A stretch of DNA of 64,000 nucleotides, from positions 1-64,000 of the forward strand of contig NZ_JAEVFE010000005.1 in the NCBI RefSeq assembly GCF_016803135.1, read 5' to 3'. Source of the stretch: Altererythrobacter sp. C41 (lineage in GTDB: Bacteria; Pseudomonadota; Alphaproteobacteria; Sphingomonadales; Sphingomonadaceae). Position numbers and translations under genes: made by a program. This document shows positions 17,180-40,199 of the stretch, in pieces. The notes below the pieces were generated by a model, which did not search any database, was not told where the DNA came from, and saw only the letters and a program-made list of their open reading frames with translations. Each line of letters starts with the position of its first letter. The stretch's first letter is position 1.

Positions 17180-18511
17180 CTAGGAGGCCGCACGAGCGTC
17201 ACCGTCCGTCGGTTCGCGAAAAAGAGGCCTGGAGGCATCGAGCCACAGGAAGATGATCGCCGCGATCAGGCACAGTATCGACAGCACGTAGAACGCGGGC
17301 TCCCATCCTGCACTTGCGACGATATAGCCTGTAAGGACGCCGGCCAATGCCGCCCCGATGTTGCCGAAAGTATTCATCAGCGCCGAGACCGAACCTGCGT
17401 ACTGGCCGCCCACATCGAGCGAGACCGCCCACGATACGCCCACCGTCAGCTCGAGTCCGAACACCGCAACACAGAAGCAAATGATGCTCACAGCCGTGTC
17501 ATCCGCGGTGACGGCAACCGGAATGAGCACTGCGGCCATTCCGAAGCCGACGACCGCTACCAGCCGCCGCGCCAGCTTGAGCCCCCATTCGCGCTTGACG
17601 AGATGATCGGAGACGTATCCCCCAGCAAGGTCGCCAAGCACACCGGCGACCAGAGGAGCGCTGGCAAACAGGCCCATGGCTGCCAGTTCGAAGCCGCGCG
17701 CATCATTCAGGTAGTTGGGGAACCACGTGAGGAATATGTTGATGCAATACGCGTAGCAGAAATACATCGATGCGAGCAGCCACATCTGAGGATTGAGCAG
17801 GATCTGCTTCCAGGGCACGGAGCCGCTGCGCTTCGCCGAGTGATCGCCGAGCGCTTCCACGATCATCTCGCGCTCCGCGTCGTTTACGCCGGAGTGTTCG
17901 CTCGGATTGTCGCGATAATACCAGAACCAGATCGCGGCCCATATGACGCCGATCAATGCGAACAGGAAGAACGGCATCCTCCAGTCGTAAAGCCCAATCA
18001 GGGCAACGACGAGGACCGGGGTCAGGGCCCCACCGAGCCGGGAACCGGCGTGCGTCAGGCCTTGGGCCCAGCCCCGTTCCGAAGGCAACATCCAACGTGA
18101 GAGGGAGCGTGTCGCGATGGGAAACGCTCCCGCTTCGCCCATTCCGAACAGGAAGCGGCAAACGATCATGGACGCCGCCGACCACGTGAGCGCTGTGGCG
18201 GCGGTGAAGAACGACCACCAGGTAACAACCCAGGTAAGGGCCCGTCTCGGGCCGAAGCGGTCCCCAAGCCATCCGCCTGGAACCTGGAACAGCGCGTACG
18301 AGATCTGGAAGGCGAAGAATATCCAGCCCATCGTGACGACGGAAAAGCCGAACTCTTCCTGGATGGACGGCGCTGCAACCCCGATCACAACACGGTCCAT
18401 GTAGGTGACCATGTAGGCGGCGACTGTGAGCCACAACACCGTGTGCCGGGTGCGCGTAGGACGTGCACTACGCGCCAGCGGCGCCGAAGTCGTTTCTTCC
18501 ATGCTCGTCAT
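17180..18511 (-). CDS. MFS transporter, ACS (anion:cation symporter) family
   Basis: 443 residues with 12 predicted membrane helices. The N-terminal signature YMDRVVIGVAAPSIQEEFGFSVVTMGWIFFAFQISYALFQVPGGWLGDRFGPRRAL is typical of the hexuronate/galactonate/phthalate branch. It likely imports an organic anion by proton symport. Its start overlaps the stop of the upstream amidohydrolase gene by 4 nt (ATGA), so the two are coupled. Confidence 0.9.
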   Translation of the reverse strand: MTSMEETTSAPLARSARPTRTRHTVLWLTVAAYMVTYMDRVVIGVAAPSIQEEFGFSVVTMGWIFFAFQISYALFQVPGGWLGDRFGPRRALTWVVTWWSFFTAATALTWSAASMIVCRFLFGMGEAGAFPIATRSLSRWMLPSERGWAQGLTHAGSRLGGALTPVLVVALIGLYDWRMPFFLFALIGVIWAAIWFWYYRDNPSEHSGVNDAEREMIVEALGDHSAKRSGSVPWKQILLNPQMWLLASMYFCYAYCINIFLTWFPNYLNDARGFELAAMGLFASAPLVAGVLGDLAGGYVSDHLVKREWGLKLARRLVAVVGFGMAAVLIPVAVTADDTAVSIICFCVAVFGLELTVGVSWAVSLDVGGQYAGSVSALMNTFGNIGAALAGVLTGYIVASAGWEPAFYVLSILCLIAAIIFLWLDASRPLFREPTDGDARAAS

Positions 18512-19848
18512 TGCTGTACCTTCCGTCCGGCGATGTAGACCGCGTTGATCGTCCGGCTGTTGAGGATGTCAGCAAGCGGATCTGCATCGAGGACCACGAA
18601 GTCGGCCCAATGCGAGGTCTCGAGTGTTCCCAGGTCTTCGGCCTGAAGGAACTCCGCGGCCCGCCCCGTGGCGGCATGCAGCGCTTCGGCGGGGGTAAAG
18701 CCGGCGTCCACCATCAACTTCAGCTCCCAATGAGCGAAATAGCCGGGGAAACGTCCGGGAGGGCCGCTGTCGGTACCGAAAGCGAAGCTCACGCCGCCAT
18801 CGGCGAGGCGCTTGTAATTGGCCTGGGCCGTTTCCAGGAACTGCGGATAGTCATGGAAATGCGCGCCCCCGGAGACGCTCTTCTGACGTTCGGGGCTGGC
18901 AAGCTGGGCGAGCGCCGTCTCGGAAACGGAGCGGCGAAAGAACGGATCATCGAGGAACGGTGCGGGCTCGCCATAGGCGAACATCGAGGCCTCGCGCGAA
19001 AGCGTCTCGGCAACCTGCCAGACGTCGTTCTCCTTCATGGCGCCGACGAGTTCCTGGTCCACCGGGCGGTCACGAACTGCGTGAGCGAGCGCGTCGACGC
19101 CTTGTTCGACCAGTTCCTTGGCGTCGGCGAGGTAGAAAATGTGGGCCGCCACCCGCAGGTCCCGTTCGTGGGCGGTGTCGATGATGGCCTGACTCATTTC
19201 GTAGGGCATCTTGGGCATTGTGCCCAATTCATCGTCCATCCAGAACTTGACGATGTCGACGCCCTTGTCGGCCTGGGCGTTCACTTCCGCGATGGCTTCT
19301 TCGACGGTGGCAACCTGGTTGTTGACGCCGGCAAGGCCGCCGTACCCGCCTTTGAAGACGAGGCCCTGTCCTGCTGTGTAGACCCGGGTCGTTTCCGGCC
19401 GGCCTTCGCGCTGCGCATTGCGGATGTCGAAGATGAGATCCTGGTCGGTGCCCATGCTGAGAACGGTGGTCACCCCGTAGGACGCATAAGTGCGAAGGTC
19501 CTTCTCGACGCTCTCTCGCGTGTAATTTGCCTTATCCTGGTTGAGATCGACGACATTCCCGAGATGGACGTGGAGGTCCATCAAACCGGGGATCACGTAC
19601 TTCCCTGCAAGGTCCGTCGGCTCGACATCGTCGGGTATTCCCAGCTCTCCGACCGGGCCAATCCGGACAATGCGCCCGTCTTCGACCAGCATGCCGGCGT
19701 TCTCGACGGCTGGCGCACCGGTTCCATCGATGAGCGTGAAATTCGTATAGGCTTGGACGTCCTGGCCCGCCGAGCCGGAGCTTGCAGCATCGCAGCCTCC
19801 AACCGTAAGCGCCGCAACTACACCCAACCACCAGCGATTTCGCATCAT
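18508..19848 (-). CDS. Exported metal-dependent amidohydrolase (lipoprotein)
   Basis: 446 residues. The N-terminus MMRNRWWLGVVAALTVGGCDAASSG has a lipobox Cys, suggesting a membrane-anchored periplasmic enzyme. The amidohydrolase fold shows HVH (PGLMDLHVHLGN), a candidate carbamylated Lys (GVDIVKFWMDDE), metal His in RVAAHIFY and DALAHAV, and the catalytic Asp in FGTDSG. It hydrolyses an amide, lactam or cyclic ester of unknown identity. SD GGGAGGGCGA precedes the start. Export is unusual for this family. Confidence 0.86.
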   Translation of the reverse strand: MMRNRWWLGVVAALTVGGCDAASSGSAGQDVQAYTNFTLIDGTGAPAVENAGMLVEDGRIVRIGPVGELGIPDDVEPTDLAGKYVIPGLMDLHVHLGNVVDLNQDKANYTRESVEKDLRTYASYGVTTVLSMGTDQDLIFDIRNAQREGRPETTRVYTAGQGLVFKGGYGGLAGVNNQVATVEEAIAEVNAQADKGVDIVKFWMDDELGTMPKMPYEMSQAIIDTAHERDLRVAAHIFYLADAKELVEQGVDALAHAVRDRPVDQELVGAMKENDVWQVAETLSREASMFAYGEPAPFLDDPFFRRSVSETALAQLASPERQKSVSGGAHFHDYPQFLETAQANYKRLADGGVSFAFGTDSGPPGRFPGYFAHWELKLMVDAGFTPAEALHAATGRAAEFLQAEDLGTLETSHWADFVVLDADPLADILNSRTINAVYIAGRKVQQ

Positions 19849-20697
19849 TCGCCCTCCCTTTGGCTTGTTCGCCCTTTCACTTCGTCACGCCGAGCGCCTG
19901 CATTCGTGAGGCCGGGCGCGCCTTGCAAAAGGTCAGATCATTTTCGTCTCAGATTGGCAGCTCCACGAAGTTCGACGATCCGATGGCGTTCGTCCGCGCA
20001 CGGCCTATGGGCGGGACAAGCCGCCAAAACCCGGAGATCTCATTCGGAAGCAGCCGCTGCCAGGCGGCAGAAAATGTGCAGGCGGACGGGCGCTCATCGA
20101 CGGAGGAGCGGCACGCGGAATTCGGAGCGGCAATGATCCCCGCTGCGCCTAAGCTGCGCTGCATCTTCCTCTCCTCTCCGGCGGATGAACTCCGCGCTTA
20201 TGAGCGGCAGGCAGCCTTTGGCCTGCAAAGGTGCTGGTTACCGCCGCCTCGCTACGGCTATGACCGTTTGGCGTCCATAGCTCCGCTGCGAATCATATCA
20301 TATCTTATCTGGCAGCATAACGCCTTGATCCCGAGGCGCCATCCCTTTTTGCATGAAAGTCCATCTTCGGCCCCGGCTGGAGACCAGCTCCGGCAAGAGC
20401 ACCGGCAGAACGGCGCGCTGCTTGCCGCGGACGGTGCGAGCACCGTCAGCCACCTAAATCGCTCGCCCTGCAACCACCTCTGCCACCCGCGCTAAGGCCG
20501 GTCGGCCTCGGTCGCGTCTCATTGCGAAACAGCAACGGCACGGTGGTAGAACTATCCCGGCTCCCGCACATAGAGAGAGAATGTATGCGTGCCACAAGCC
20601 GCTGCATGAGTGGAGACAATAGGTTGCTGAAATGATATCAGATGTGAAATGGGCCCTCTGATTTCAGGCGCCTCCCACACCTTTTTGAGACAGCAAG
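19849..20697. other. 849-bp gap with one operator-like site
   Basis: No coding sequence on either strand shows family-like composition. The stretch lies between the divergently transcribed amidohydrolase unit and the GntR gene. It contains the operator-like word AATCATATCATATCTTATC (20291-20309) and a TGATATCA palindrome (20633-20640) close to the GntR start. A decayed gene cannot be excluded. Confidence 0.6.
20291..20309 (-). promoter_or_regulatory. Candidate (weaker) copy of the cluster operator
   Basis: On the minus strand this reads GATAAGATATGATATGATTC, sharing the ATATGATTC half and the overall spacing of the site at 40181-40200. It lies 440 nt upstream of the amidohydrolase start and 390 nt upstream of the GntR start. 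Distance and looser match make it less certain than the other four. Confidence 0.4.
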
Positions 20698-21447
20698 ATG
20701 CCAAAAACGAAGACCAGCAAAAATTCTGACGCCGCCTCGGCGCTCGAGGACGGCTTTGCTCCGCGCGCGCGCGCGGCACGACCATCGGCGAGCCCGACCA
20801 TGGTCAAGCAGGCTTACGACCACCTGTTGACGGCGCTCATGACCCTGCAGATCGCACCGGGCGACCGCATTGCGATTGATCAGGTGGCGCGAAGGCTGGA
20901 CATTTCGCAAACGCCCGTCCGGGAAGCGCTTAGCCAGCTCGAGGCCAAGAAGCTGGTCGTCAAGACGCCCAATGTGGGATACCGGGCCAGCCCTCAGATG
21001 ACGCGCGAAGAAGTGCGCGATCTATATGCGCTGCGCCAATTGATCGAGCCATATACCGCGGCTCGCGCTGCCGCCGCGATGTCGCCTCGCTCGATAGCAA
21101 CGCTCAAGTCGATCGATCGGGCGATGTCCAGTATCGTGGACGGCGACCCCGACGCGTTCTCCAACTTCGCCGCGGCGGACGACCAGCTTCACCAACTGAT
21201 TGCGGCCCTGAGCGGCAACCGTCTCGTGGCTGATATGCTGGAAGGGCTGCACGCCCACATGCATATCTTCCGCGCGCTCTACAGAACCAATGCGCCGAGC
21301 GAAGCGGCGGCCGAGCACAGAGTGGTCATCGATGCTCTGGTGGCCGGCGATCCAGACGGTGCGGAGAATGCCATGCGGATCCACCTGGAGCGCTCTCTTC
21401 AAAGAATGGATGAGGCGCTCGCAGGCGAGGAAGCCCCAACCACATAG
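20698..21447 (+). CDS. GntR family regulator, FCD (FadR) type
   Basis: 249 residues. Winged helix-turn-helix at about 35-100 (GDRIAIDQVARRLDISQTPVREALSQLEAKKLV), then an all-helical FCD ligand domain (about 105-235) with the metal/ligand residues D161, H165, H207 and H229 in family spacing. Such regulators are usually repressors released by an organic acid. Central position in the cluster and the repeated operator make it the likely master regulator. A Ser/Ala-rich 30-residue N-terminal extension precedes the wHTH. Confidence 0.92.
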   Translation: MPKTKTSKNSDAASALEDGFAPRARAARPSASPTMVKQAYDHLLTALMTLQIAPGDRIAIDQVARRLDISQTPVREALSQLEAKKLVVKTPNVGYRASPQMTREEVRDLYALRQLIEPYTAARAAAAMSPRSIATLKSIDRAMSSIVDGDPDAFSNFAAADDQLHQLIAALSGNRLVADMLEGLHAHMHIFRALYRTNAPSEAAAEHRVVIDALVAGDPDGAENAMRIHLERSLQRMDEALAGEEAPTT

Positions 21448-21465
21448 AATTCCACAAAGAGTCCC

Positions 21466-21508
21466 TTGACAGCCGCACGGCCCGCTCCTAGCCAAATCAT
21501 ATAGGATA
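21466..21508 (+). promoter_or_regulatory. Promoter and operator of the Fe-ADH operon
   Basis: TTGACA (21466-21471) and TAGCCA (21489-21494) are spaced by 17 nt and form a plausible sigma-70 promoter. AATCATATAGGATA follows at once (21495-21508), about where transcription would begin, which suits repression. The same word occurs at 34254 and, inverted, at 40186; its palindromic form is at 29210. Confidence 0.65.
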
Positions 21509-21799
21509 GGAAACAGGGGCCATGGATGAGCCTGGTGCGGTTGCATTTTGCGGCCTGGATTCATGCGGGCACCGAAAGGTGCACCCTCCAGGTGTTTGCG
21601 GCCCGCGTCTCCGGGCGGTCCGTGGCGACAGGCATTTCACTTGCGCCTTCTACCGGCCCTCCGCGCATGCGTCCTGACGACAGCGTGCCGGAGGGCTGGC
21701 TCCCATTCCGACGTCTCAAAGGGCGGCGAAGCGAACGCATCGCCGGTGTCAAACGTCGACCGAGCGCTTTCGATCGGTCGGGCAGAAAGCGAGCAATAC

Positions 21800-27203: not shown

Positions 27204-27986
27204 TCACTGCCCTGTCCAGTCAGGGATGCGCCTCGTCTTGGCCAGGAAGTCCGCCACACCGCGACGGAAATCCGCGCTGCCGTAGACGCCGGCGATCAGT
27301 TCCTCGATATCGGGCAGGCCCTCGAATACCATCCGGCGGATCGTTTCCTTGGTGGCGTGCGTGGTCAAAGGAGCGTTAGCGGATGCCTGCTCGCATAATG
27401 CAGCAACTTCCGCATCCATGTTCTCCCGTTCGACCAGTTTGAGCAGGAAGCCGCTCGCGTAGAGCTGATCTGCGGTCAGCATCTCGCCAAGCAGGACCAT
27501 TCGCTTGGCGAATTGCACTCCCACCGCAGCGCCTATCCGCGCCACGCTTGCAGCGGATAGGCAATTGCCGATGGTGCGCCCGATCGGCGAGCCGAACTTC
27601 GAATCCGGCGTGGCGATGCGGAAATCGCAGGCGGATGCGATATTGATTCCGCCGCCGACCGCCCAGCCTTCGACAACCGCGATCGTCGTGCAAGGAATGG
27701 CGTCGAGCGCCCCCATGCACTCGTCTATCTCACGCTCGTAAGCAACACCTTGCCGGCCGTCTTCGTACTCGGCAAACTTGGAGATATCCGTGCCGGAGAC
27801 AAACGCCTTGCCGCCGGCGCCCCGGAAGGTAACGACGCGAACGGAGCGATCCTGCGCAAACTCGCGCGCAGCATCGCGCAGATCGAACCACATCTGGCTC
27901 GTCAAGGCGTTGTGCGCGGATGGGTTGTCCATACGGACATGCGCCGCCGCGCCATCGCGCGTGACTGTGATACGCCCCTCGCTCAT
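27204..27986 (-). CDS. Crotonase/enoyl-CoA hydratase family protein
   Basis: 260 residues with the crotonase fold: oxyanion-hole segments GGKAFVSGTDISKF (about 58-71) and VEGWAVGGGINIASACDFRIA (105-125). The two glutamates of classical hydratases are not present: N115 stands at the first (GGGINIA instead of GGCELA) and I135 at the second (KFGSPIGRT instead of FGxPE). Another crotonase reaction (isomerase, hydrolase, decarboxylase or lyase) is therefore more likely than simple hydration. It overlaps the CoA-transferase gene by 4 nt and probably acts on its product. Confidence 0.88.
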   Translation of the reverse strand: MSEGRITVTRDGAAAHVRMDNPSAHNALTSQMWFDLRDAAREFAQDRSVRVVTFRGAGGKAFVSGTDISKFAEYEDGRQGVAYEREIDECMGALDAIPCTTIAVVEGWAVGGGINIASACDFRIATPDSKFGSPIGRTIGNCLSAASVARIGAAVGVQFAKRMVLLGEMLTADQLYASGFLLKLVERENMDAEVAALCEQASANAPLTTHATKETIRRMVFEGLPDIEELIAGVYGSADFRRGVADFLAKTRRIPDWTGQ

Positions 27987-29170
27987 TCCGCCGCCTCCGC
28001 GCCTTTGGACAGCAAGCCTCGCTCCATCAGTTCCTCGCGGATGGCATCGCCGTGTTCGTCGAGCAGTGGCGGTGGCAACCTCACTTCCTGCGGCGTACCG
28101 CGCATCTTGACCGGAAAGCCGAGCGAGCGGAACTCTCCCTCCACCGGATGTTCCACCATCATCATCATCTCGCGCGCTTCGGCCTGCTCGCTTGCAATGG
28201 CTTCACCATAGTCGAGGATAGGCGCCGCGGGGACGCCTGCGCCCAGAAGAGTGTCGATCCACTCCTGCTTGGTGCGCGTCTTGAAGGTAGGCGCCATCGC
28301 GTCGATCAGCTCCTGGCGGTTCTGGACACGCGATGCGTTGTCGGACCAGCGGGGATCGTCCTGCAATTCCGCCCTCCCCATCACATCGATCATCTTGAGC
28401 CACAGGCCCTGGTTTGCGGCACCGATCACGAACCAGCCGTCCGATGCTTCTACCGCTTGGTAGGGGGCCGACATGCGGTTGGCAGAGCCGATAGGTTGAG
28501 GCGGTTTTCCCGTGCCCCACAGTTCGGCCGTTTCCCAGATCGACAGGCCCAGGGCAGCTTCCAGCAGCGATGCGTCGATGTACTGACCCTTGCCCGTTTT
28601 TTCTCGTCCGATGATCGCGCTGAGTATTCCGTAAACGCTGAACAGGCCTGCACCGAGATCGGCAACGGCGATCGAATTCTTGGCCGGCTCCATGCCCGGG
28701 AATCCGTTCGAACTCAGGACCCCGGACATAGCCTGCGCAATCAGGTCGAAACCGGGACGCATTGCCCAGGGCCCGGTCTGGCCGAAGCCCGAAATACTGG
28801 CATAGACGAGCCTGGGATTGAGCTCGCTTAGCGTCGCGTAATCGATGCCAAGCCGCTGCGCGACGCCCGGCCGCGCGTTTTCGACCAGAACGTCGGCAGT
28901 CTTGACCAAGGCGTAGAGGACCTCGCGTTCGGCTTGATCTTTCAGATTCAGGCAGATGCTGCGCTTGTTGCGATTGAGCGCGAGAAAACCCGGACTGTCC
29001 TCCCCCTTCAGACGAAATCCCATGGAATGGCGCGTCGAATCGCCGGTTCGCGGCGGCTCGATCTTGATGACGTCGGCTCCCATGTCGCCCAGCAACATGC
29101 AGCAGAATGGCCCCGCCATGACCTGCGAGATGTCGAGGACGCGCAGCCCCGCGAGCGGCAAGTGTGCCAT
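27983..29170 (-). CDS. CaiB/BaiF family CoA-transferase
   Basis: 395 residues from MAHLPLAGLRVLDISQVMAGPFCCMLLGDMGADVIKIEPPRTGDSTR, the class III CoA-transferase N-terminus. The likely catalytic Asp is in SIAVADLGAGLFSVYGILSAIIGREKTGKGQYIDASL. It moves CoA from a donor such as succinyl-CoA to a carboxylic acid, activating it for the adjacent crotonase. GAGGAGA precedes ATG 29170; a TTG at 29188 would overlap that SD. Divergent from the second PQQ dehydrogenase, with the perfect operator palindrome between. Confidence 0.92.
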   Translation of the reverse strand: MAHLPLAGLRVLDISQVMAGPFCCMLLGDMGADVIKIEPPRTGDSTRHSMGFRLKGEDSPGFLALNRNKRSICLNLKDQAEREVLYALVKTADVLVENARPGVAQRLGIDYATLSELNPRLVYASISGFGQTGPWAMRPGFDLIAQAMSGVLSSNGFPGMEPAKNSIAVADLGAGLFSVYGILSAIIGREKTGKGQYIDASLLEAALGLSIWETAELWGTGKPPQPIGSANRMSAPYQAVEASDGWFVIGAANQGLWLKMIDVMGRAELQDDPRWSDNASRVQNRQELIDAMAPTFKTRTKQEWIDTLLGAGVPAAPILDYGEAIASEQAEAREMMMMVEHPVEGEFRSLGFPVKMRGTPQEVRLPPPLLDEHGDAIREELMERGLLSKGAEAAE

Positions 29171-29209
29171 CAGAATGTCTCTCCTCAATAACCTTCTAAT
29201 TCTGGCCTA

Positions 29210-29228
29210 AATCATATTGTATATGATT
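29210..29228. promoter_or_regulatory. Perfect palindromic operator in divergent promoter
   Basis: AATCATATTGTATATGATT: AATCATA and TATGATT are exact reverse complements around a 5-nt centre. It lies 40 nt upstream of the CoA-transferase ATG and 85 nt upstream of the second PQQ dehydrogenase, so one bound dimer could control both. This is the complete symmetrical form of the AATCATATAGGATA word found at three other promoters. Confidence 0.75.
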
Positions 29229-29313
29229 CCAAGGCGGTTTAACGTAGCGCTTTAGATGGACCTGCCGGGGGCCGATGCCCCCAGGCAAGCCTTTATAGGG
29301 AGAGGGCTTACCG

Positions 29314-31212
29314 ATGCGATTGAAGCACTGGCCCGGATTCTTGATCGGAAGCCTGTTGGCGACAACCGCTTGCCCGGCACTTCTGGCGGAGGGTCCCGGC
29401 GATTGGAGCAGCTACGGGCACGACGAGAGCCACGCGCGGCATTCGCAGCTGACCGTAATCACCCCCGAAAATGTCCACCAATTGCGCAAGCTGTGGACCT
29501 TCAACATGCGCCCCGAGGGCCAAGCTGCAGAGGCGGTCGCAATGCCCGACACCTCGGCGCCGCCACAGCCGTCTCGTTATTCCGCGTCGCAAGCCACTCC
29601 TCTCGTCGTGGACGGCACGATGTATCTGCCGACTCCCTATAACCGCATCGTGGCTCTCAACGCCTCCACGGGCGAAGAGCGATGGGTTTTCGTGCTGCCC
29701 GACAAGGACCAGGCGTCGACTCGCGGCGTGGCATACTGGCCAGGGGACGGCGAGGTCGGCCCCCGGATCGTGTTTGGCTCGCGGAACGGAAAACTCTACG
29801 CGCTCGACGCAGCCACGGGCCGTCTTGCGGAGGGGTTCGGAGAATCGGGCGCGGTGAACATGAAGACGCCCGAAGTCATGAACGGCACGCGCGCGCCGCT
29901 GGGCATGACCAGTCCGCCGGCGATTTACCGCAATCTCATCATTACCGGCTCGCGCGTGCAGGAGATGCCGGTCAAGGGCGCGCGGGGCGACGTACGCGCC
30001 TGGAACGCGGTTACCGGCGAACTCGTGTGGACGTTCCGCACCATCCCGCGCCCGGGCGAACCCGGCTTCGAAACCTGGGAGGGCGACAGCTGGAAGGATC
30101 GCTCCGGCGCCAACGTCTGGACATTCATTCCCGTCGATAATGAGCGCGGCATCGCCTATCTCCCCGTCGGCGCTCCCACCTATGACCGATGGGGCGGCGA
30201 CCGCCCGGGCGAGAATCTCTACGGCAATTCCGTGGTCGCGGTGAACGCAGCCACCGGCGAATACCTGTGGCACTTTCAGACGGTGCATCACGACATTTGG
30301 GACGTCGATCTCCCGGTCGTGACCCTCGTCGACGTGAAGCGCGACGGCGAGACGATCCCCGCGATCGTGGCGATGAACAAGATGGCAATCATGTTCATCC
30401 TCGATCGCGTGACCGGCGAGCCACTCTACGACGTGACGGAAGTCCCGGTCCCTACCGAAACCGATATTCCGGACGAACGGCCCTGGCCCACGCAGCCCAT
30501 GCCGGCCAAGCCCGCGCCGCTCGCCCGCCTGAGCTTCGACATGAGTGAGATCGTCGAGGGACCGCCAACTCTGCGCGCAGCGTGCGAGAAGGTTGCCGCA
30601 GAGCTGAACGTGGTCGGCAGCAAGATGTTTCAGCCGTTGCGGGCGGATTCAGCTGTTGCATTTTTTCCCGGCAGCCTCGGCGGAGTGGACTGGGGCGGCG
30701 GATCGTTCGACCCTGCGACCTCGCTTTACGTCGTCAACATCAACAGTCTCGGAAGCCCCCAGCAGATGGAGCAGCAGCCCGACGGCAGTTGGGGCATGAA
30801 GACCGGCTACACGTACTTCCGTGACCCCGAGACTGGCCACCCCTGCGGCAAGCCGCCGTGGGGCGAGCTGGTGGCGGTAAACGTGAATACCGGGGACGTC
30901 GCCTGGCGAACTGTCTTGGGCGACAACGAAGAGCCCCTGCTCAAGGATGCGGGGCGGATCAGCGCCGGAGGCCCGATCACCACGGCTAGCGGCCTGACCT
31001 TTATCGGCGCGACGACGGATTCAATGATCCGAGCGTTCGACACCCGCACAGGCGAGTTGCTCTGGAAGGACCAGCTGCCTGCCTCAAACTACGGAACCCC
31101 CATGACATACGCGATGGAGGACGGGCGCCAGGCGCTCGCCGTCGTGGCTACGGGCGGGTTCGCATCCCAACCTCCGACTGCCGACGAGGTGGTCGTCTAT
31201 ACCCTGCCATGA
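29314..31212 (+). CDS. PQQ-dependent dehydrogenase, second copy
   Basis: 632 residues. A signal peptide (MRLKHWPGFLIGSLLATTACPALLA) is followed by a quinoprotein propeller starting DWSSYGHDESHARHSQLTVI, with repeats such as GEERWVFVLPDKD, GELVWTFRTIPRPGEPGFETWEGD and TGEYLWHFQTVHHDIWDVDLP. No heme motif. Related to but clearly distinct from the enzyme at 24584 (shorter, Sec-type signal). Electrons presumably go to the small cytochrome encoded 9 nt downstream. The two enzymes may act on successive alcohols or on stereoisomers. Confidence 0.88.
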   Translation: MRLKHWPGFLIGSLLATTACPALLAEGPGDWSSYGHDESHARHSQLTVITPENVHQLRKLWTFNMRPEGQAAEAVAMPDTSAPPQPSRYSASQATPLVVDGTMYLPTPYNRIVALNASTGEERWVFVLPDKDQASTRGVAYWPGDGEVGPRIVFGSRNGKLYALDAATGRLAEGFGESGAVNMKTPEVMNGTRAPLGMTSPPAIYRNLIITGSRVQEMPVKGARGDVRAWNAVTGELVWTFRTIPRPGEPGFETWEGDSWKDRSGANVWTFIPVDNERGIAYLPVGAPTYDRWGGDRPGENLYGNSVVAVNAATGEYLWHFQTVHHDIWDVDLPVVTLVDVKRDGETIPAIVAMNKMAIMFILDRVTGEPLYDVTEVPVPTETDIPDERPWPTQPMPAKPAPLARLSFDMSEIVEGPPTLRAACEKVAAELNVVGSKMFQPLRADSAVAFFPGSLGGVDWGGGSFDPATSLYVVNINSLGSPQQMEQQPDGSWGMKTGYTYFRDPETGHPCGKPPWGELVAVNVNTGDVAWRTVLGDNEEPLLKDAGRISAGGPITTASGLTFIGATTDSMIRAFDTRTGELLWKDQLPASNYGTPMTYAMEDGRQALAVVATGGFASQPPTADEVVVYTLP

Positions 31213-31221
31213 GGTCTTTCT

Positions 31222-31524
31222 ATGCTGACTAAGAATCTATCTCGCCTCGTTCTTCTGCTCGCTGCGGCCGGGACTTGCACAATGGCCGCCGGTCAGCAGA
31301 GAACCGCTCCGCCCCCCGGCCCCGGACTAAAACTCATCAACGAGCGCTGCGCCTTCTGCCACACCACCGCACAGGTGCTACGCGTGCGTAAGACTCCTGA
31401 GGCCTGGAGAACCACCGTCAGGCTGATGGTCGACCGGGGAGCGGAACTCAGCCCCAGCGAAGAGAAGGTAATGATCAATTACCTGAACACCCATTTCGGA
31501 GTGCGGAAAGGCAAGCAACGCTGA
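31222..31524 (+). CDS. Very small c-type cytochrome
   Basis: 100 residues. Signal peptide to about residue 25 and one heme motif CAFCH at 43-47 (LINERCAFCHTTAQVLRVRKTPEAW). The remainder is short, of the kind found in quinohemoprotein small subunits. Partner of the PQQ dehydrogenase just upstream. Confidence 0.82.
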   Translation: MLTKNLSRLVLLLAAAGTCTMAAGQQRTAPPPGPGLKLINERCAFCHTTAQVLRVRKTPEAWRTTVRLMVDRGAELSPSEEKVMINYLNTHFGVRKGKQR

Positions 31525-34253: not shown

Positions 34254-34268
34254 AATCATATAGGATAT
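34254..34268. promoter_or_regulatory. Operator copy in bicupin/MFS divergent promoter
   Basis: AATCATATAGGATAT lies 19 nt upstream of the MFS start and 68 nt from the bicupin start. A possible promoter for the MFS side is TTTACG-17 nt-TACAGT just before it, so the operator again sits right after the -10. Identical over 14 nt to the site at 21495. Confidence 0.7.
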
Positions 34269-40185: not shown

Positions 40186-40199
40186 TATCCTATATGATT
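40186..40199 (-). promoter_or_regulatory. Operator copy upstream of the TonB receptor
   Basis: On the minus strand AATCATATAGGATA is identical to the word at 21495-21508, within GAATCATATAGGATAGAATC. TTGACC (40227-40232, minus strand) lies at a suitable distance for a -35 element. The site sits just upstream of the receptor ribosome binding site GGGAGGG. Confidence 0.72.

Follow-up and report, generated by a model that had tools for sequence, protein, structure and literature searches.

A predicted compound operator of a GntR/FCD regulator between divergent CoA-transferase and PQQ-dehydrogenase units

The 19-bp palindrome AATCATATTGTATATGATT, located exactly at positions 29210-29228 of the window (the whole 64,000-nucleotide stretch of Altererythrobacter sp. 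C41 DNA analysed here), is probably a compound operator of the GntR/FCD regulator encoded in the same cluster, composed of a 12-bp dyad and a third half-site, from which both flanking transcription units would be repressed. Specifically, the regulator dimer is predicted to read the 12-bp dyad ATTGTA/TATGAT (29216-29227), whereas the additional half-site ATCATA probably helps a second dimer to bind or strengthens binding. Within the site lies the putative PQQ-dehydrogenase -35 box, whose -10 box would be at 29240, and transcription of the CoA-transferase unit is expected to start at about the same place. Once bound, the repressor would therefore silence the two divergent units together, until released by an effector, which by analogy with other FadR-type proteins is probably a small organic acid. 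Operator, regulator and regulon are thereby predicted for a catabolic cluster with a scattered occurrence among sphingomonads, which is present on a Sphingobium indicum plasmid as well. Coordinates are collected in Table 1.

Table 1. Positions in the window of the palindrome, its predicted elements, the related sites and the genes concerned
Feature	Position	Strand	Remarks
19-bp palindrome AATCATAT-TGT-ATATGATT	29210..29228	.	the subject of this analysis; sequence matches
ATTGTATATGAT, proposed GntR dimer dyad, centre TA/TA	29216..29227	.	one mismatch to consensus ATCNTATANGAT
ATCATA, extra (third) half-site, offset from the dyad phase by 5 bp	29211..29216	.	invariant in 18/18
TTGTAT, proposed PQQ-dehydrogenase -35 box, inside the operator	29217..29222	+	invariant in 18/18, always 17 bp to TA
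TAACGT, proposed PQQ-dehydrogenase -10 box	29240..29245	+	TA at this spacing in 18/18
ATCATATAGGAT after the regulator gene	21496..21507	+	1 nt past TTGACA-N17-TAGCCA; third half-site TAGGA at 21507-21511
ATCATATAGGAT between cupin and MFS genes	34255..34266	+	4 nt past TTTACG-N17-TACAGT; without a third TA.GA
ATCATATAGGAT upstream of TonB receptor gene	40187..40198	-	third box TAGAA one mismatch off
GntR/FCD regulator, proposed binder	20698..21447	+	Pfam PF00392 and PF07729; Asp61 and Gln71 replace FadR Arg35 and Arg45
Enoyl-CoA hydratase/isomerase	27204..27986	-	Pfam PF00378; NCBIfam NF004796 above cut-off
CoA-transferase family III (CaiB-like), first leftward gene	27983..29170	-	Pfam PF02515
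PQQ-dependent dehydrogenase, first rightward gene	29314..31212	+	Pfam PF01011
Small haem-binding protein	31222..31524	+	Pfam PF09098; positional counterpart on the Sphingobium plasmid annotated as cytochrome c

A preliminary description of this DNA had reported a perfect palindrome at this position, lying between a CoA-transferase/crotonase unit and a PQQ-dehydrogenase/cytochrome unit. Both statements agree with the exact sequence, with the complementarity of the arms and with the Pfam matches of the flanking genes. The proposed layout of 7+5+7 needs correction, because the arms AATCATAT and ATATGATT are fully complementary across 8 bp and the central TGT alone is unpaired, which makes the architecture 8+3+8. 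The palindrome is 39 bp away from the likely ATG of the CoA-transferase III gene (29170, leftward; picked by eye inside the ORF 27983-29188 on the minus strand) and 85 bp away from the PQQ-dehydrogenase gene (29314, rightward). Palindromic symmetry by itself is weak evidence and near chance: the base composition of the window predicts approximately two perfect 8+3+8 repeats in 64 kb, and the window contains five inverted repeats with arms of at least 8 bp. The sequence and its conservation, unlike the symmetry, are not near chance. AATCATATNNNATATGATT has its sole exact copy in the 3.2-Mb genome at 29210-29228, and it is absent, at up to one mismatch, from the six other genomes of the genus. 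AATCATANNNNNTATGATT, allowing up to three mismatches, occurs at four places in the window versus 0.25 expected. Additionally, a search of the whole 3.2-Mb genome for AATCATATAGGATA with up to two mismatches returned only 21495, 34254 and 40186, where the match is exact, plus 29210, which matches on either strand; one match was obtained with the reversed control.

These three other copies, which had been described as asymmetric, are in fact near-palindromes about a different centre. They share ATCATATAGGAT, which is nearly symmetric about TA|TA (ATCNTA|TANGAT; here ATCATA|TAGGAT), and fully symmetric versions of this 12-mer, ATCATATATGAT and ATCCTATAGGAT, are present in other genomes. The consensus ATCNTATANGAT has just three matches in the 3.2-Mb genome, every one of them inside this cluster, versus none for its reversed control; with up to one mismatch it occurs at four places in the window versus 0.40 expected, the fourth being 29216-29227. 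At this fourth place the dyad is imperfect, since its left half reads ATTGTA rather than ATCNTA, and the outer pair ATCATA/TATGAT matches better. The combination of two perfect outer halves, ATCATA and TATGAT, with a weak middle half, ATTGTA, gives rise to the apparent 19-bp palindrome. Upstream of the regulator gene, 20291-20309 (AATCATATCATATCTTATC) is a weak match to the 19-mer pattern with three mismatches, possibly a decayed site. On the other side of the regulator gene, relatives carry an amidohydrolase gene, whose product is about 50% identical to that of window 18508-19848, and an MFS gene; both are absent from 21448-21568 of the window, in which an Fe-alcohol dehydrogenase gene directly follows the site.

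The third half-site recurs at a fixed step from the dyad. Among 46 unique 12-mer sites, taken from the window and from fetched loci (some of them on contigs other than that of the regulator; L100, L104, L105, L107, L110 and L125 were excluded beforehand), a third TA.GA at the 5-bp step is present in 26, versus 0-2 at each of 14 further offsets. The fair control offsets are 12-25, offsets 9 and 10 being excluded by the 12-mer itself. Because the first T (offset 11) is preset by the 12-mer and many of the sites are orthologous, 26/46 is not to be read as a probability. A perfect TA.GA accompanies all 19 sites of the TTGACA type, none of the 12 of the TTTACG (MFS) type and 7 of the 15 others, so the third half-site is not general across 12-mer sites. 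At the regulator-proximal site, letter 3 of the third box varies (TAGGA, TACGA, TATGA) like the free N of the half-site.

Comparison of the intergenic region between the CoA-transferase and PQQ-dehydrogenase genes separates what is conserved from what is merely symmetric. Of 22 loci tried, 18 carried both genes, window included, and 16 of these are distinct in sequence; L068, L071, L074 and L075 were dropped before counting because one or both genes were missing in the fetched stretch. The 17-mer ATCATATTGTATA[T/G]GAT is present in all 18 regions, and the dyad 29216-29227 is kept in each of them except for its free N. Specifically, 16 of the 17 columns are invariant, and the sole variable one, position 14 (T in 10 regions, G in 8), coincides with the free N of the half-site. 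Exact symmetry is consequently not preserved, the right half being TAGGAT in 8 of the 18, whereas the non-symmetric centre TTGTA is kept in 18/18. Most of these relatives belong to one genus, so the counts are not independent. The 17-mer also stands at the same place in the cluster on the Sphingobium indicum B90A plasmid pSRL1 (L057, NZ_CP013071.1), which carries the catabolic cluster and its operators.

The distribution of the site across genomes largely parallels that of the regulator. With a threshold of E<=1e-40, the regulator is patchily distributed over sphingomonads, being found in 20 of 201 genomes of the genus of G091 and in 5 of 298 family genomes, and the exact pattern ATCATATTGTATAKGAT is found in 20/201 and 3/298, respectively. 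In the genus set, 19 genomes have both, one has the regulator alone (G305, whose regulator is 40% identical), one has ATCATATTGTATAKGAT alone (G449, a genome that is 81% complete) and 180 have neither. In the family set, the three genomes with the 17-mer are all among the five with the regulator, and G076 and G144, with regulators 42-43% identical, have no exact 17-mer. The genus matches of the 17-mer lie between the CoA-transferase and PQQ-dehydrogenase genes in 18 of 20 cases and in another context in G381 and G339. Because the motif is inside the cluster, its co-occurrence with the regulator is partly co-occurrence of the cluster.

Additionally, ATCMTATAGGATA is present in 20/20 genus genomes with the regulator and in 5/181 without it. 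One of the five is G449, which also has the 17-mer and the CoA-transferase/PQQ-dehydrogenase gene pair; in the other four (G299, G324, G368 and G374) it takes the fully symmetric form TATCCTATAGGATA. At position 1502 of the respective fetched loci, TATCCTATAGGATA lies between rtcR-like and Ro60-like genes in G374 (L100) and G299 (L104), one of the two Ro60 matches being below the Pfam cut-off, and just after phage-integrase genes in G368 (L105) and G324 (L107). It may be a site of an RtcR-related or other regulator in the former and is perhaps part of an attachment site in the latter; with such neighbours, the fully symmetric form is not cluster-specific. Five regulators are 40-43% identical to that of the window. 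A perfect 12-mer adjoins only the regulator gene of G305; G076 has a one-mismatch form, and the other three have no 12-mer within one mismatch nearby. The perfect ATCATATAGGAT of G305 (L076, 4992-5003) separates the regulator gene from a gene for an AraC-type regulator; an aldehyde dehydrogenase is encoded beyond, and a distant relative of Fe-alcohol dehydrogenase on the opposite side.

The operator appears to be interwoven with promoter elements. TTGTAT-N17-TA is present in 18/18 regions; of the 53 columns compared on the downstream side of the 17-mer, none but the two of this TA are invariant. In 11/18, TAGCAT or TAGCAC, preceded by TTGC or CTGC, makes up the second hexamer. We propose that TTGTAT and the TA hexamer are the -35 and -10 boxes of the PQQ-dehydrogenase promoter, the -35 box lying within the operator, and this double use of TTGTAT suggests repression. 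A mechanical sigma-70 scan of 29100-29400 called no promoter. Towards the CoA-transferase gene, 12/18 regions have TTGTYC-N17-TAGCAR with its end 8 nt ahead of the 17-mer, and five others have TTG[CT]NC-N16-TATA[AG]A on that side; neither form is present there in the window. The TATGAT inside the site was considered as a CoA-transferase -10 box and rejected, as no conserved -35 box was seen by eye 17 bp ahead of it. In L062 and other relatives, the intergenic region contains TGCTAGCA, itself palindromic, which seems to serve as the -10 region on both strands for two divergent promoters.

In line with a repressor function, 31 of the 46 unique 12-mer sites start 0-4 nt past TTGACA-N17-TA or TTTACG-N17-TA, that is, close behind a putative -10 box, where a bound protein would block polymerase. 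In particular, 19 start 0-2 nt after TTGACA-N17-TANNNN, 12 start 2-4 nt after TTTACG-N17-TANNNN, and 15 have neither. In the window, this arrangement holds for 21496 and 34255 but not for 40187, beside which neither of the two searched promoter forms was found. A regulatory role between two diverging units, as originally suggested, is well supported by a conserved site that belongs to one family with the other three sites; that this role is repression is our reading of the promoter overlap.

The likeliest binder of the site is the GntR protein of the cluster, to which the preliminary description had also pointed. It combines an N-terminal GntR winged helix with a C-terminal FCD domain, both above curated cut-offs, and contains the segments DDQLH, LHAHMHIF and EHRVVI, which by eye are similar in the relatives compared and would be candidates for the FCD metal-ligand pattern (D/N-x3-H plus two further His). 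NCBIfam and PDB searches returned no close characterised homologue. Gln71 aligns with Arg45 of Atu1419 (6z74), which reads the essential G of the operator ATGTATACAT (PMC7797058); Asp61 was placed at FadR Arg35 by an ungapped alignment extending that with Atu1419. All 29 regulators compared, window included, have Asp at the FadR Arg35 position and Gln at the Arg45 position. Four FCD genes of the same genome (L007, L009, L010 and L011) served as controls outside the 29; the three FCD/GntR paralogues among them that gave alignments have Arg at the second position (Arg45).

PMC4494728, in whose numbering FadR Arg35 is position 28 (its Table 1 begins with Ser-7 as 0), infers contacts at site positions 6/14, Arg with G and Asp with C. 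From that numbering we deduce that positions 6/14 are the K and M of TKGT/ACMA. Counted from the dyad, the 12-mer half reads A, T, N, C, T, A; the base is thus free at the position where Arg45 would select G, and a C stands at the K position of TKGT, where Asp would be expected to meet C. In the 19-mer register, the C is at a distance of 6 from the central base, where it would not fit. Of the arguments for the 12-mer register, and for the GntR protein as the likely binder, this inferred fit of the residues weighs most. The recognition residues and the half-site spacing of the GntR family fit the 12-mer better than the 19-mer.

The preliminary description had taken the exact symmetry to display the full dimer site. 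In such an arrangement, one dimer would bind ATCATA and TATGAT with 5 bp between them, and the protein would tolerate two spacings. Both outer half-sites are indeed perfect at 29210, and symmetric 17-mers with other centres exist (ATCATATCCTATATGAT in L057, ATCATATCGTATATGAT in L071 and ATCATATCAGATATGAT in L034), yet the extra 5 bp would put one half-site on the other face of the helix, the symmetry is broken at one pair in 8/18 regions while the supposed spacer TTGTA is invariant, a perfect third TA.GA is missing from 20 of the 46 unique 12-mer sites, and the known GntR half-site spacing fits the 12-mer. We therefore regard this arrangement as unlikely and the original claim as probably wrong; a perfect palindrome is not necessarily the dimer site. 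A pure chance palindrome in an AT-rich promoter, which the expected number per 64 kb might suggest, is barely conceivable, being refuted by the conservation of the site in 18/18 regions; genome-wide, moreover, the site is confined to the cluster. That another regulator binds, the GntR gene co-occurring merely through the shared cluster, would accommodate the lack in the 12-mer of the usual TKGT/ACMA boxes of the subfamily and the four other FCD matches of the genome. We consider it improbable, since the Asp/Gln substitutions would explain the absent boxes, the 40%-identical regulator still adjoins a perfect 12-mer although CoA-transferase/PQQ genes are absent from the 20-kb stretch examined there, and the site is retained in G396 although its regulator is on a different contig (contig 3, with the site on contig 5).

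On the other hand, two regulator dimers might occupy opposite faces of the DNA in overlapping registers, as in IdeR/DtxR boxes, which would extend the compound operator proposed above rather than oppose it. Where present (26/46 sites), the third half-site is exactly 5 bp, or half a turn, out of phase, and there are precedents in IdeR, in NanR with three dimers on a repeated operator and in extra half-sites near GntR-family sites. However, good half-sites number only three here versus the four of the IdeR box, the half-site with which the third box would pair has two mismatches, and a perfect third box is missing at all 12 MFS-type sites, which leaves the two-dimer arrangement possible but doubtful. 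A slightly more tentative form of it is a two-register switch, in which one dimer would read the TATA-centred dyad, another would use the 5-bp-shifted half-site from the opposite face, and the -35 box would be part of the half-site shared by both. If true, site strength at each promoter of the cluster would be a trade-off between the middle and the third half-site, the third box being strong at the site near the regulator gene and at the divergent one, and absent at the transporter site.

For the site strings searched in one paper library, which matched only two unrelated papers, this operator was not found in the literature, and no literature on such a cluster, on plasmid pSRL1 or on overlapping FCD operators was found. 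The prediction can nonetheless be set beside known systems. Like the operators of FadR-subfamily (FCD) divergons in PMC4494728, in which single sites serve both divergent operons, the site is a short AT-rich palindrome, single between divergent operons. For a share of sites, that source also describes a further, weaker half-site at a distance of 7-12 nt from the centre, and the third half-site here, centred 8 nt from the dyad, falls within this range, as it does in 26/46 sites. Unlike those operators, the half-site is ATCNTA and not a TKGT box, and the regulator has Asp and Gln for the contacting Arg residues of FadR. The TKGT/ACMA pair, in which GT and AC are separated by 3 or 2 nt, was not found in the 12-mer sites, which read ATCN-TATA-NGAT; in 29216-29227 a TKGT-type box is present in the left half only (TTGTA). 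NanR and BioR are among the exceptions to TKGT/ACMA boxes named in the same source. Asp/Gln in place of contacting Arg, with an operator that differs just where expected, would make the system a clean test of the recognition code of the family.

Among individual repressors, Atu1419 of A. fabrum, a VanR-group FCD protein, has a similar TATA-centred short palindrome that overlaps promoter boxes of catabolic genes, but its operator requires a G at the third position of the half-site, which Arg45 reads; the present regulator has Gln instead of this Arg, and the third position is free. Another GntR-type repressor with more than two half-sites is E. coli NanR, which binds (GGTATA)3 and likewise has its operator downstream of the polymerase-binding site; its half-sites are direct repeats, unlike the dyad plus one extra half-site seen here. 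Finally, the IdeR/DtxR box is also a 19-bp palindrome built of repeated short elements, possibly for two dimers on opposite faces, yet it belongs to another protein family and has four repeats where the present site has three, a full set of four repeats in two overlapping dyads being absent because the partner of the third half-site carries the two mismatches noted above.
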